DNA from: Chloroflexota bacterium
Lineage (GTDB): Bacteria; Chloroflexota; Dehalococcoidia; Lucifugimonadales; Lucifugimonadaceae
Assembly: GCA_002730555.1 (NCBI GenBank)
Contig: PCAM01000007.1
Location: 62,001-126,000, forward strand
Direction of reading: 5' to 3'
DNA length: 64,000 nucleotides
The notes beneath the pieces are model-generated. The model did no database searches. It worked only from the letters and a program-made list of their open reading frames with translations, and was not told the origin of the DNA. Position numbers and translations under genes: made by a program. Below are positions 14,538 to 54,618 of the stretch, piece by piece; positions within the stretch are counted from its first letter, which is position 1; every line of letters starts with the position of its first letter.

Positions 14538-15248
14538 CTAGTGCCCCTCTTTTACCTGGACCTTCTGCCAGTCATAGTCGACGTCGCCGTCGTAGAAGCG
14601 GTCTGGGTGTTCGATGGCCCAGAGCTGTTTCCGCATGTTCCAGTGGTCGGGTTCGACCTTGATACCCTCGCGCCAGATAGCCGCTGCGCCTTCCAGGTCG
14701 CCGGAGCTATAAAGCGCAAGGCCGCGCTCGAAGTGGTCAAGGCTCGCGACGTCTACGGCGCCCTGTACCGGGGTGTCTTTCGTCAGGTTCATGTCGCCGT
14801 TCAACAGGAAGTCGCTGACTAACCGCTTCGTGGCCGACTTTCGGATGTCGAACCCACCGTATAACGCATATCGGAGCACGCCGTTCTCGTCGATCAGCGC
14901 GCCGTTTGGTACCGCGCGTACGCCGAATGTCCGGGTGACGATGGTCCCTGCGTCCACGACCGTCGTGAACTGAGCTCCCGCCTTATCGTGGAAGGGGCGT
15001 GGGAAGTCTGGGCCCTGAAGGTCGACGGCTATCGACAGCACGTCGGAGCCCGCAGCGGTAATGTCCCCGTACATTTGCTGCCAGACCGGCAGCTGTTCAC
15101 GGCAGCCTCACCACGAGGCCCACATAAATACGGCGATCCGCATGCCCCGATAGTCGGAGAGTTGGACGTCGACCCTTTCCAGCGAGGGCAGGGTGAAGTC
15201 CGGGACGAGATCACCGATGGCCGGGGTGGTTGTGCCGGTTGATGTCAT
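14538..15248 (-). CDS. Thioredoxin-like redoxin, candidate selenoprotein (UGA = Sec at residue 47)
   Basis: The frame from ATG 15248 (RBS GGGAGA just upstream) runs to 14538, 236 residues, interrupted only by one TGA at 15108-15110. The N-terminus is redoxin-like: IGDLVPDFTLPSLERV, then VFMWASW-U-GCREQLPVW, so the UGA falls where TlpA/AhpC-like proteins have the first active-site Cys. The fold continues in frame with VLSIAVDLQGP, the cis-Pro region FGVRAVPNGALID and GVLRYALYGGFD. After ~residue 170 there is a TPR-like tail (FERGLALYSSGDLEGAAAIW). A SECIS-like hairpin follows the UGA at the expected distance. The protein may reduce disulfides or peroxides. A simple nonsense mutation is the alternative, with a truncated product from ATG 15074. 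Confidence 0.75.
15077..15093 (-). promoter_or_regulatory. Bacterial SECIS-like hairpin
   Basis: Counting from the base after the UGA, bases 15-31 form GCUGCC-GGUCU-GGCAGC, a perfect 6-bp stem with a GGUCU loop. The loop matches that of the E. coli fdhF SECIS (GGUCU) and starts 21 bases after the UGA, against 19 in fdhF. SelB recognises such a loop to recode UGA. No obvious bulged U is present in the stem. Confidence 0.6.
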
Positions 15249-15421: not shown

Positions 15422-15652
15422 TCAGCCAATGCCGTGGAAACCGACTTCCACCTCTCCGTTGCGGAGCAGCACCGGCGTCGTGCGGTCGCCGCCGGTGAGA
15501 TTCTCCACCACCGGCCACTGGTCCTCGTGGACGCTCAGGTCGATCTCTTCGTACTTCACACCCTCTTCGTCGAGCTCCTCCTTGAGCATGTTGGAGAAGT
15601 CGCACTCGGGGTGCGTGTAGAGGATGGGTAGTGTGGTGTCAGGGGTAGTCAA
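15422..15652 (-). CDS. Glutaredoxin-like protein with a C-x-x-S active site
   Basis: A 76-residue thioredoxin-fold protein. The active site reads HPECDFSNMLKEELDEEG (~residues 14-31), so the second Cys of a dithiol glutaredoxin is Ser. YEEIDLS and the cis-Pro region RTTPVLLRNGE follow. One Cys suggests a monothiol mechanism, for example deglutathionylation or delivery of reducing equivalents. It starts with TTG with no strong ribosome-binding site. It lies upstream of the candidate selenoprotein on the same strand, separated by 170 bases that contain a repeat, so a shared redox role is possible but not shown. Confidence 0.75.
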   Translation of the reverse strand: MTTPDTTLPILYTHPECDFSNMLKEELDEEGVKYEEIDLSVHEDQWPVVENLTGGDRTTPVLLRNGEVEVGFHGIG

Positions 15653-15660
15653 GTTGGGTT

Positions 15661-15819: not shown

Positions 15820-16026
15820 TTACATGGGCATGCCTTCAAAGTTTGGGTCTAGGTACTTGGCGGGCTCTTTTGAGAACGCGACCCGGCAGCCAGCGCCGCA
15901 GAAGTAGTAGGTCTCGCTATTGTGTTCATGGGTTCCTCCGTTCGGGTTACCCATGTCCACGTCCATCTTGCAGACGGGGTCTACGGCGGTGTCAGGGTGC
16001 TTGTTGAAAAACGGGATCTTGGGCAT
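15820..16026 (-). CDS. YHS-domain metal-binding protein
   Basis: A 68-residue protein that is nearly all YHS domain: DPVCKMDVDMG (~residues 17-27), then the second metal-binding part YYFCGAGCRVAFSKEPAKYL. YHS domains are thought to bind copper or related heavy metals and often accompany copper ATPases, matching the location just downstream of copA on the same strand. The ATG at 16026 has GAGGAGAGG directly upstream; the longer open frame to 16101 lacks such a site. The Cys-x-x-x-Cys of the second half is intact. Confidence 0.87.
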   Translation of the reverse strand: MPKIPFFNKHPDTAVDPVCKMDVDMGNPNGGTHEHNSETYYFCGAGCRVAFSKEPAKYLDPNFEGMPM

Positions 16027-16203
16027 TTCGCCTCTCCTCAAAGCGGGCGGATCGATATCCGTCCCTGCGGTGTTCTTGTCCGGACGAGGCTTCTCCCTCA
16101 CCTCTTAACCATTGGGGCCTCTCCCGGCCGGGAGAGGGAATCTCATTGCTGCTTGTTAGCCTGTTGCGGTTATGGACCCCTGGGCTGGTGATCCGCCCGT
16201 TGG

Positions 16204-18774
16204 TTAGTCGCTGTTGTGGACCGGCCGGCGGCCCAGGCGCAGGGAATTTGTCACGACCGTCACGGAGCTCAGCGCCATCGCCCCTGCCGCCGCGATCGGG
16301 TTCAGGACGCCGTTGTGGCCGAGGATTGGTTGTAGCACACCCGGGACGCTGCCGTCGGACCAGATCGGGTACAGCACGCCGGCCGCGATCGGGATCAGTG
16401 CCACGTTGTAGAAGAAGGCCCAAAACAGGTTTTGCTTGATGGTGCGCATCGTAGAACTGCTAAGGGCGATAGCTGCCGATACATCCCGCACGTCTCCGCG
16501 CATGAGCGTGATATCGGCGGTCTCGATGGCGACATCCGTGCCGGCACCGATCGCCATTCCCACGTCGGCCAGCGCCAGGGCGGGGGTGTCGTTGATGCCG
16601 TCTCCGACCATCCCGACGCGCCGACCGTCGGACTGGAAGCGGGCCACAACGTCTGCCTTGTCCGCGGGCAGGACCTCGGCGACCACGTTATCGATGCCGA
16701 TCTGCCGCGCCACGGCCTCCGCAGTACGACGGTTGTCGCCGGTGAGCATGACCGGCTCGATCCCCAGCGACTTGAGTTCGGCGATGGCCTGGCGCGCTTC
16801 CGGTTTGACCCGGTCCGCAACGCCGATCACGCCGAGGAGCACTCCGTCACGGGCGATGATGAGCGGCGTCTCGCCGTTGATCGTGAGCGTCGTGACATGC
16901 GGCTCGATGTCCGAAGCCAATATGCCTTCGCCCCGCAAGAACGCAGCGGTTCCGGCGAGCACGGTTACGCCGTTTACCGACCCTCGGACGCCTCGACCGG
17001 GGACGGCTTCGAAATCGGTGGCCTCCGCTATCTGGAGTCCGCGTGCGGCTGATTCTTCAAGTACAGCGGACGCGAGGGGGTGTTCAGACGGTCGCTCGAC
17101 CGCGACCGCGGCCTCGAACAGCTCGGCCTCGGACACGCCTAGCGCCGTTATCGATGTGACACGCGGCCGGCCCTCGGTGAGCGTCCCGGTTTTATCCAGG
17201 ACCACCACCTCAAGCTTGTGCGCCGTTTCCAGCGCCTCGGCGTTGCGGATCAGGATGCGGTTCTCGGCGCCCCGACCCATTCCGACCATGACGGCCGTGG
17301 GCGTCGCCAGTCCGAGTGCGCATGGGCAGGCGATGACCAGAACGGCCACCGTGGCTAGTAGTGCATTGACGTAGACCGGAGAAGGCCCGATCAACGCCCA
17401 CGTGACGAAGACGGCGGTAGCGATAAGTAGCACCGCGGGCACGAAGCGGGCGGTGATTACGTCGGCAAGTCGCTGGATGGGCGCTCGGGATCCCTGGGCG
17501 TCCTCCACCATCTTGATGATCTGGGACAGCAAAGTCTCCCGCCCCACGCCGGTTGCGGCGAATCGAATGCCGCCATGACCGTTTACCGTGCCTGCAAAGA
17601 CGTCGTCGTCGGTTGATTTCTCTACGGGAATGCTCTCGCCGGTGAGCATAGATTCGTCCACAGAAGTGCTGCCGGAGATTATCGTGCCGTCCACGGCGAT
17701 CCGCTCCCCGGGCCTGACGACGATCTCGTCGCCCTGCACGATGTCGTCCAGCGGCGTCTCCACCAATTCATCCCCGCGTGCCACCAGCGCCGTACGGGGC
17801 TGCAGCCCGATCAGCTTCTTGATGGCGTCGGATGTGCGCCCGCGTGCGCGGGCCTCAAGGAATCGCCCAAGGAGGATGAGGCCGATGATTGCGGCGGACA
17901 CGTCGTAGTAGGTGCCGGTAGCGTGGCCGCCGAACAGGCTTGATGCCTCAAACGTTCCGCGTGAGAGGGTCGCGGCCAGGCTGTATGCGAACGCCACGGA
18001 TGTTCCGATGGCGATCAGCGTGTTCATGTTTGAGGTGCGGTGCTTGAGCGCCCCCCATCCGCCGGAGTAGAACTCTTTGCCGGCCCAGAACTGGATGGGG
18101 ATCGCGATTGCCAGCAGGAAGACGTTGACCCCGGTGGGGGAGAGGTCTTCGAGGGCGGATACCGACTGGTACTGCATGATCAGCATCATCACGACGGCGG
18201 CGGTCAGTGACGCGATAACGCGTATGCGGAGTGAGCGGACACGCGCCGCTCGCCGAGCGTCCTCGTCCGGGCGCGACATGCCGTCGTCGATCATGCCCTC
18301 GACGGAGTAACCGGCGTCTGCGACCGCGGTGCGAAGGTCGCTGATATCGGCGGTCGCCGGGAAGTACTCGACGCTGGCGCGTTCGGTCGCCAGGTGGACG
18401 GTGGTGTTCACGATGCCGGTGACGGAGTTGAGCGCCTTTTCGACGTGGGCAACGCACGCGGCGCAGGTCATACCGCCGATCGACAGTGTGATTACCTCAG
18501 AAGCTGCACCGTATCCGGCACCCTTGACGGCCTCAATCAGGTCGTCCGGATTCACCTGCGAAGGGTCCAGGACCACGGTTGCCCGCTCCGTCGCAAGGTT
18601 CACCTCGGCGTTTGTGACACCTTCAACCTCGTTCAGCGCGTTCCCGACGTGGAAGACGCAAGCGGCGCAGGTCATGCCGGTGATCGGCATAGTTATGGAG
18701 ATGCTGTCTTCCAGCGTCGTATCTTCGGAATTCGGGGTGTCCGGGTGCGCGTGCGGTTGTTCGGTCGTTGTCAT
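16204..18774 (-). CDS. copA: Copper-translocating P-type ATPase
   Basis: An 856-residue P1B-1 ATPase that exports Cu(I) from the cytoplasm. Two N-terminal heavy-metal-associated domains carry [11 protein letters not shown] and [11 protein letters not shown] (~residues 33 and 103). Eight membrane helices are expected, with the copper-binding CPC in [15 protein letters not shown] (~483). The phosphorylation loop is DKTGTLTEG (~526), the nucleotide-binding part includes SEHPLA, and the hinge is [11 protein letters not shown] (~728). A His-rich N-terminus (EQPHAHPD) could add metal binding. csoR ends 2 bases upstream, so the two form an operon under copper control. Confidence 0.96.
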
Positions 18775-18776
18775 CG

Positions 18777-19043
18777 TTACTTGTTCGCCAGTCCGTAAAG
18801 TTCCACCAGTTCACCCAGCACCTCGTCCGAGCGGCCCTCGCGTACGCCCTCGATGACGCATGAGTGGAGGTGACCGTCCAGCAGATTGGACTCGAGTTTC
18901 TCGATGGCCCTTCTGATGGCGTAGGTCTGCTTGAGGATATCGACGCAGTAGCGCCCTTCCTGGACCATTTTTTTCACGCCTGCCAGGTGGCCTTCGATGT
19001 AGGAGATGCGATTTACGGCGTTTTTTGTGGTTGCGTCGATCAT
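18777..19043 (-). CDS. csoR: CsoR-family copper-sensing transcriptional repressor
   Basis: An 88-residue all-helical repressor. The Cu(I) site residues are in YCVDILKQ and LHSCVIEG with His in DGHLHSC (C-H-C pattern), and [17 protein letters not shown] is the family's first helix. Apo-CsoR binds GC-rich operators and leaves when copper binds. The start [10 protein letters not shown] at 19043 is chosen; the frame is open 8 codons further up. It lies directly upstream of copA, and a GC-rich inverted repeat is in its own leader, consistent with autoregulation. Confidence 0.93.
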
Positions 19044-19076
19044 GATGGAACCCGGGATTGAAAGCACTGTACCCGT

Positions 19077-53458: not shown

Positions 53459-53690
53459 TGGTCGTGCTAGGCGGGGAGTTAGCGGTGTCCTGTACCTGCA
53501 ATCCGCTTCAGCAGGGCTTAATCCCTTCAGGAGGCCGGACACGTTAGTCACTACGTCGTAGATACGGTGTTGAGAGTTGGGTCCTGCGCGGCGAGGCCTC
53601 GTGAACCCCGTCAGATCCGGAAGGAAGCAGCGGTAAGTGAGTCACCTCGGGTGACGCAGGTTGGCCTGGCTCGAGTCGTTATCTACGCGC
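53459..53690 (+). ncRNA. ffs: Signal recognition particle RNA, long type with Alu domain
   Basis: The S-domain core GTCAGATCCGGAAGGAAGCA (53610-53629) is followed by GCGGTAAG, and CCTGCG/CGCAGG pair around it. The outer helix CGTAGATA (53557) pairs with TATCTACG (53680). Upstream, GTGCTAGGCGGGGAGTTAGC and CAATCCGCTTCAGCAGGGC match the Alu domain known from the Bacillus scRNA. TATACT at 53447-53452 is a -10 box that places the RNA start near 53459. The 3' end is approximate. Confidence 0.93.
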
Positions 53691-53712
53691 ATACTCGCGT
53701 TGTTCGAACGAA

Positions 53713-54618
53713 ATGAAGGTGCACGACCACTCCCAGAACGTTAATCGGGGATCCGTACCGTCCGGCGCAAAACGCCGTCCGGGCGGATCTCCGAAAAAAT
53801 CTCTGGGACAACACTTCTTGATAGATTCCTCTATCGCCGCGCGCATCGTAAAAGCGGCGCGGATCGAGCCGGGGGAAACGATCCTTGAGGTCGGCCCAGG
53901 CCGGGGCGCGATCACGGGGATGCTCGCCGACAAGGCCGAACGGCTGGTACTGATCGAGATGGACAGTGCGCTGGCGGCGATGCTGACCGAGCGGTACGCG
54001 GCTACGAACAACGTTCGGGTGATCGAGTCCGACGCCCGTGACCTGGACCTTGCCGAGGGCGGCGATATCCCGGAGATCGTTGGACGACCGTACAAAGTCG
54101 TCGCCAATCTGCCGTACTACGCCGCAGCGAACATCATCCGGCGGTTCCTGGAGTCTGATGACGCACCGGTCGAGATCGTGGTGATGATTCAAAGCGAGGT
54201 GGCGCTTGAGATGGCGGCCCCGGAAGGGAAGATGGGGCTGCTCTCGGTAGCCACCCGCTTCTACTCGGAGCCAGAAGTGCTGTTCGACGTGCCGGGCTCT
54301 GCGTTCACTCCGCCGCCCAAGGTGACATCTTCTGTTATCCGCCTGGTTGGTCGCCCGGACAGGCCCCTGCAACTTGACGACGAATCCGGGTTTTTCAAGT
54401 TTGTGCGGGCCGGTTTCAAGGCACCGCGCAAACAGTTGCACAACTCGCTGGCCCGGGGCTTAATCATCGATGTGACCGAGGCGTCCGACATCATCGCCCG
54501 GGCGGAACTGGACTCGATGCGGCGTCCTCGGACCCTGTCTATTGCGGAGTGGGGGCGGCTCTATGAGGCGCGGGTGGCGACCGTTTCCGCAGAACCCTCT
54601 GGGCCCGACGACCGATGA
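53713..54618 (+). CDS. rsmA: 16S rRNA (adenine1518/1519-N6) dimethyltransferase
   Basis: A 301-residue KsgA/RsmA methyltransferase. KKSLGQHFLIDSSIAARIV is the family start, the SAM loop is ILEVGPGRGAITGMLADKAE, the catalytic NLPYY motif is present (VVANLPYYAAANII), and the C-terminal part has GSAFTPPPKVTSSVIRL and FKAPRKQLHNSL. It modifies the 3' end of 16S rRNA late in small-subunit assembly. The stop overlaps the ispE start by four bases (ATGA). Confidence 0.95.
   Translation: MKVHDHSQNVNRGSVPSGAKRRPGGSPKKSLGQHFLIDSSIAARIVKAARIEPGETILEVGPGRGAITGMLADKAERLVLIEMDSALAAMLTERYAATNNVRVIESDARDLDLAEGGDIPEIVGRPYKVVANLPYYAAANIIRRFLESDDAPVEIVVMIQSEVALEMAAPEGKMGLLSVATRFYSEPEVLFDVPGSAFTPPPKVTSSVIRLVGRPDRPLQLDDESGFFKFVRAGFKAPRKQLHNSLARGLIIDVTEASDIIARAELDSMRRPRTLSIAEWGRLYEARVATVSAEPSGPDDR

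Follow-up and report, generated by a model that had tools for sequence, protein, structure and literature searches.

A UGA codon very probably read as selenocysteine in the U-x-C site of a TlpA/ResA-type redoxin from Chloroflexota

The in-frame UGA at codon 47 of a thioredoxin-like gene from marine Dehalococcoidia is almost certainly read as selenocysteine (Sec) in the active site of the encoded enzyme, a reading first proposed from the sequence and now supported by the Sec machinery of the genome, a UGA at this codon throughout the phylum and a covarying hairpin downstream of it. Taken as a whole, the data leave little doubt that the locus is best explained as a functional selenoprotein gene, with Sec47 in the U-x-C site of a TlpA/ResA-fold oxidoreductase. 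The gene lies in a stretch of 64,000 nucleotides (the window; contig C9:62001-126000) taken from a draft genome of 2.57 Mb in 41 contigs, with 91.7% completeness. The reading frame, UGA conservation, covariation in the SECIS stem, Sec machinery, protein fold and gene order were computed, and homologues were searched for in 400 Chloroflexota genomes and in a public genome scan. The features discussed are listed in Table 1.

Table 1. Features of the selenoprotein locus and of the adjoining gene array, in window coordinates.
Feature	Position	Strand	Evidence
Selenoprotein gene, AhpC-TSA/ResA-type redoxin, 236 residues with predicted Sec47, TAG stop	14538..15248	-	Reading frame; AhpC-TSA (PF00578) 62.3 bits (cut-off 26, passed); orthologues 80-86% identical in other species
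In-frame TGA, codon 47, predicted Sec	15108..15110	-	TGA in all site-spanning homologues; selA, selB, selC and selD in genome
Cys49, predicted resolving Cys of the U-x-C pair	15102..15104	-	Translation; invariant in 19-protein alignment
SECIS hairpin (candidate), 6-bp stem, loop GGUCU	15077..15093	-	21-nt hairpin -11.6 kcal/mol, z -3.0 vs shuffles; six stem pairs formed in 97.2% of cells (30 distinct sequences); covariation 0.226 vs 0.099 +/- 0.014 in shuffles (0/500 as high)
TPR-like C-terminal tail, ~residues 170-236, EPDHWNMRKQLWAIEHPDRFY motif	14541..14741	-	AlphaFold helices; weak TPR_2 match below cut-off
Glutaredoxin-like gene, TTG start, HPECDFS motif (Cys, not Sec), just upstream of the selenoprotein gene	15426..15653	-	Glutaredoxin PF00462 38.3 bits; adjacency conserved in L031-L034
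Small YHS-domain protein, metal-binding type	15820..16101	-	YHS 28.5 bits, just under cut-off 30.3; conserved order
CopA-like heavy-metal P-type ATPase	16204..18774	-	Sequence motifs (two GMTCAACV heavy-metal-binding motifs, DKTGT); order conserved in L031-L034
CsoR-like repressor (putative), first gene of the array	18777..19067	-	Named from sequence; order conserved in L031-L034

Reading frame and conservation of the UGA codon

The gene is read on the minus strand from an ATG at 15248-15246, with GAGGGAG 5 bases upstream, to the stop codon at 14540-14538, while the plus strand of the same interval contains stops and offers no useful frame. The first-pass annotation had given the details of the locus correctly but had left the strand unstated; translation of the minus strand confirms the 236-codon frame that it described, broken only by the TGA, which sits in VFMWASW-U-GCREQLPVWQ. 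Protein-like sequence continues for the 189 codons after the TGA with no frameshift, as had also been claimed, and the frame is kept across homologues. The list of open reading frames additionally holds a 178-aa ORF (15074-14538), and the locus could accordingly be divided into two genes, a 46-residue peptide ending at the UGA and a 178-aa protein starting from the ATG at 15074; this division can practically be discounted, as conservation within the family is among its highest at the codons for GCREQLPVWQQ, between the UGA and that ATG, and a complete thioredoxin fold is obtained from the whole frame only.

TGA is present in all orthologues from other Dehalococcoidia and Chloroflexota species, both those in the identity range given in Table 1 and a more distant one (L036) at ~55-57% identity. 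A sequencing error or a nonsense mutation, with TGC or TGG as the true codon or with the gene reduced to a pseudogene, is a concern that a draft assembly of this kind naturally raises, yet it is scarcely credible here, since homologues of 26-86% identity, from many species assembled independently, share TGA at this same codon and keep the frame for ~190 codons downstream. A profile search of the 400 Chloroflexota genomes returned matches in 22 genomes, with TGA in every match that spans the site, and a broader profile gave 29 matches at or above 206 bits, ranging from 329 down to 207 bits, all with TGA. In these genomes and the public scan taken together, TGA is kept by every homologue covering the site, to as low as ~30% identity. 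The 30th match, which scores 194 bits and has no stop, is a fragment starting past the site, whose other half on contig C17 carries TGA; the next matches, at 112 bits or less, are ordinary proteins, and the top two, when read, are WCPPC proteins without the tail. A DNA pattern admitting TGA, TGC or TGT at this codon (W-x-x-W-[TGA/TGC/TGT]-x-C-R-x-x-L-P) was also run on the 400 genomes and produced 30 matches, 28 of which are family members, all 28 with TGA. Two pattern matches with a Cys codon (L083 and L089) were rejected as relatives, being unrelated frames from outside the family.

By profile and by pattern, no orthologue with Cys at the Sec position was found in the 400 Chloroflexota genomes, and neither Trp nor Gly occupies the site in any family homologue; Cys stands at the aligned position solely in the broader TlpA/ResA family with CxxC, the nearest members of which score about half as high. 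The comparison of homologues that had been proposed at the outset thus upholds a UGA conserved through the phylum, without Trp or Gly, but not the mixture of Sec and Cys forms that was then expected. As far as its sequences tell, the redoxin clade is Sec-only within the Chloroflexota of this sample.

Several individual members and a further search may be recorded here. The L138 gene (G045:C2:327671-328390) has the variant site WASY-U-GCAFDLP, in which the Trp and Arg beside U-x-C are replaced and the TGA is retained. Genome G302 (L042, L062) holds three copies of the family, one of them also with an in-frame TAG and perhaps a decaying duplicate, and L043, L044 and L062 carry, beyond the tail, a C-terminal CGPxGC that might be a second redox pair. 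A plasmid search returned ordinary TlpA-type proteins alone, at <60% identity.

Selenocysteine machinery and the candidate SECIS hairpin

A search of the genome for selA, selB, selC and selD, suggested as a check on the Sec reading, found all four above curated cut-offs: selA at 528.6 bits (cut-off 267.9), selB at 336.1 bits (cut-off 242.25), selD at 353.4 bits (cut-off 125) and the tRNA-Sec gene selC at 66.5 bits (cut-off 47), with the anticodon TCA by ARAGORN. Because selC lies on contig C9, the window's own contig, a binning artefact is ruled out for this gene. selA is present in 25 of 27 Chloroflexota carriers of the redoxin gene, the two carriers without it being genomes of 77% and 86% completeness, versus 26 of 33 sampled non-carriers; given its frequency in the latter, co-occurrence is not discriminating, the machinery being necessary and the selA test excluding only its absence. 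The selD of the same genome (L020, G000:C6:66146-67072) has its own in-frame TGA, in SCAG-U-AGK, with a stable hairpin 24 bases later, and a second predicted selenoprotein of this genome is glutaredoxin-like, with NG-U-GPC and the TGA in frame (L001 1429-1731; G000:C17:30969-31145).

Decoding of the UGA as an amino acid other than Sec, whether by reassignment to Trp or Gly or by near-cognate readthrough, would agree with a set of homologues that have TGA only, so that no relative reveals the residue. It is nonetheless very improbable: TGA terminates 14 of the 44 coding-like ORFs longer than 200 aa in the window, and UGA is therefore not generally reassigned; the tRNA with the UCA anticodon fits the tRNA-Sec family; at the corresponding position canonical relatives carry Cys; and the sequence downstream of the UGA contains a SECIS hairpin that covaries. 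For Sec, the reading retained here, SelB and Sec-tRNA(Sec) would bind this hairpin 14 bases past the UGA and Sec would be inserted at codon 47.

The perfect 6-bp stem and GGUCU loop that the first-pass annotation had placed about 15 bases after the UGA were recovered as described, with six pairs joining 15093-15088 to 15082-15077 around a loop at 15087-15083; the stem begins at the 15th base past the UGA, and the spacing from UGA to loop is 20 bases. The published model of the bacterial SECIS comprises a loop of 3-9 nt, a stem of 4-16 bp, a spacing of 16-37 nt and an MFE <= -7.5, with G in the first two loop positions and a pattern of G then G or U (PMC13188914), and the window hairpin falls within it in loop, stem, spacing and MFE. 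When 48 nt are folded alone the result is weakly unusual (z -1.8 vs shuffles), so the SECIS case rests on comparative evidence. Over the 30 distinct sequences, the stem covaries more strongly than in any of the shuffles (Table 1), and in any slid register the value is <=0.108; covariance, one of the checks proposed for the region after the UGA, thus speaks for the hairpin. The outer pair shows compensatory changes (G-C 13, C-G 10, A-U 1, U-A 1), the second pair is C-G in 25, U-G in 3 and U-A in 2, and the three inner pairs are invariant, hence uninformative on covariation. The SECIS of E. coli fdhF likewise has a GGUCU apical loop, at a similar distance from its UGA, and differs in stem sequence.

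The stem overlaps the conserved protein motif LP[GV]WQ, and part of its conservation could be protein-driven. G is the third base of the Leu codon within the stem in all 34 genes, as against 214 of 451 (47%) Leu codons elsewhere in the same genes, a comparison of related sequences that carries no formal probability. Across the redoxin family the loop varies (GGUCU, AGGUU, CGUGU, CGGGU) with G then G/U kept, and LP is followed in every case by Gly or Val, encoded by GGN or GTN. Exactly these codons would result from a loop rule of G then G or U, and the RNA signal may thus constrain the protein sequence at LP-[GV]-WQ.

Protein fold, probable chemistry and gene neighborhood

The protein matches Redoxin at 53 bits in addition to AhpC-TSA, and its AlphaFold model (pLDDT 88.9, pTM 0.85) shows a thioredoxin fold and, beyond it, helices starting at residue 170 (170-181, 185-198, 203-213, 215-218 and 225-233). 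The fold is like those of 3gl3 and ResA (2f9s), with TMt 0.87, and when the protein is aligned to 3gl3 the UGA matches the first CxxC cysteine and the following Cys the second, with a gap of one residue; a fold search against viral proteins returned nothing of interest. The tail had been described as TPR-like, and the model agrees with its helical nature, but the TPR_2 match of 18.9 bits stays below the curated cut-off of 27, so that no TPR repeat is recognized and the tail is TPR-like only. No signal peptide is evident by eye at the N-terminus MTSTGTTTPAIGDLVPDF.

Judged by sequence and model, the window protein is a cytosolic TlpA/ResA-type redoxin with a helical tail, in which the canonical CxxC, less one residue, has become U-x-C, and it would act as a thiol(selenol)-disulfide oxidoreductase. 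Cys49 is the sole Cys codon of the translation, and the redox pair must therefore be U47-C49 within one chain. In the predicted chemistry, residue 47 would supply the selenol that attacks a disulfide or a peroxide and Cys49 would resolve the intermediate as a selenenylsulfide, while the tail, to go by its fold, probably binds a partner or substrate. An AhpC/TSA-type selenium peroxidase, instead of a disulfide reductase, is an unlikely function but one with several points in its favor, namely the Pfam AhpC-TSA and Redoxin matches, the many selenoproteins of the same fold that are peroxidases and the publication of the type as 'Prx-like' (PMC2398784). In sequence and structure, however, the nearest proteins are reductases of the TlpA/ResA/DsbE type (3gl3, 3kcm and ResA), ahead of peroxiredoxins, the top NCBIfam match is named ResA-like, and a U-x-C at the CxxC site suits dithiol chemistry, all of which argues for the disulfide reductase.

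The selenoprotein gene is the last of an array whose order, csoR, copA, YHS, glutaredoxin-like and selenoprotein, is kept in the close relatives L031-L034, with suf genes on the opposite side wherever the contig is long enough to reach them. Scanned as a protein, the glutaredoxin-like product gave no Pfam match above its cut-off. The conserved order suggests a link to copper stress, which is tentative because the later genes of the array are separated by gaps of ~100-180 bases, no promoter-like site above shuffles was found inside the array, and L036 lacks the array, its gene being flanked by ispG- and proS-like neighbors (named from sequence). The position of the selenoprotein at the end of the array would be in keeping with redox repair during copper stress as the protein's function. 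A broader scenario, put forward as doubtful, is that a one-residue loss from CxxC gave rise to a selenium-only U-x-C clade, that the need for a SECIS shaped LP-[Gly/Val]-WQ, and that in marine Dehalococcoidia the clade joined a CsoR-type copper-resistance operon, with selenium serving redox repair under copper stress. Elsewhere in the window, positions 53462-53726 match the bacterial large SRP RNA (181 bits).

Relation to known selenoproteins and redoxins

The locus provides a clean, well-supported selenoprotein from an uncultured marine lineage, in a gene of which standard annotation would yield a split or truncated version. With no Cys version in the sample, the family lends itself well to asking why some enzymes retain selenium, and the codons around the site would represent an RNA signal acting on protein sequence; if the copper link is true, selenium use would be tied to metal stress in Chloroflexota. 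The U-x-C site is unusual, as the first-pass annotation held, but its novelty is lower than was claimed, the type being catalogued already (PMC2398784, PMC13188914, NCBIfam NF041054); a literature search for the WAxxUGC motif or SAR202 selenoproteins found nothing. The U-x-C selenoprotein type is thus known, the window protein is a short form of it with a TPR-like tail, and the Sec-only clade and the copper-operon context are modest additions.

The GOS selenoproteome of 2008 lists a 'Prx-like (UGC-containing)' family, pfam00578 with the motif UGC, with 46 selenoproteins and 855 Cys homologues (PMC2398784); a 2022 review names UGC-containing Prx-like proteins (PMC9312934), and a 2026 review a 'UGC-containing TlpA disulfide reductase family protein', cd02966 (PMC13188914). 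The window protein has both features that define this type, pfam00578 and U-G-C, and further shares with it the predicted Sec and the bacterial SECIS model, the likeness to its exemplars (MBL6689828.1, MDE0950781.1) being one of domain and motif, i.e., of description. In contrast to the 855 Cys homologues of the GOS family, the 400 Chloroflexota genomes hold no Cys form with the spacing and tail of the window protein. Its best named match is NCBIfam NF041054, WAxxUGC_long (ResA-like WAxxUGC motif-containing protein), which has the same WAxxUGC site; with 136.1 bits against a cut-off of 300 over a 354-position model, the best stretch covering residues 15-125, the window protein does not belong to this family, a longer sister form, and is itself shorter, without the N-terminal extension. 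Members of NF041054 do occur in Chloroflexota, e.g., L060 at 463.7 bits, with the same SECIS. The ResA/TlpA/DsbE (CcmG) proteins have the same fold and the same WASWC-R-P surroundings, but they carry CxxC and are exported or membrane-bound, whereas the window protein lacks an evident signal peptide and combines U-x-C with a helical tail.
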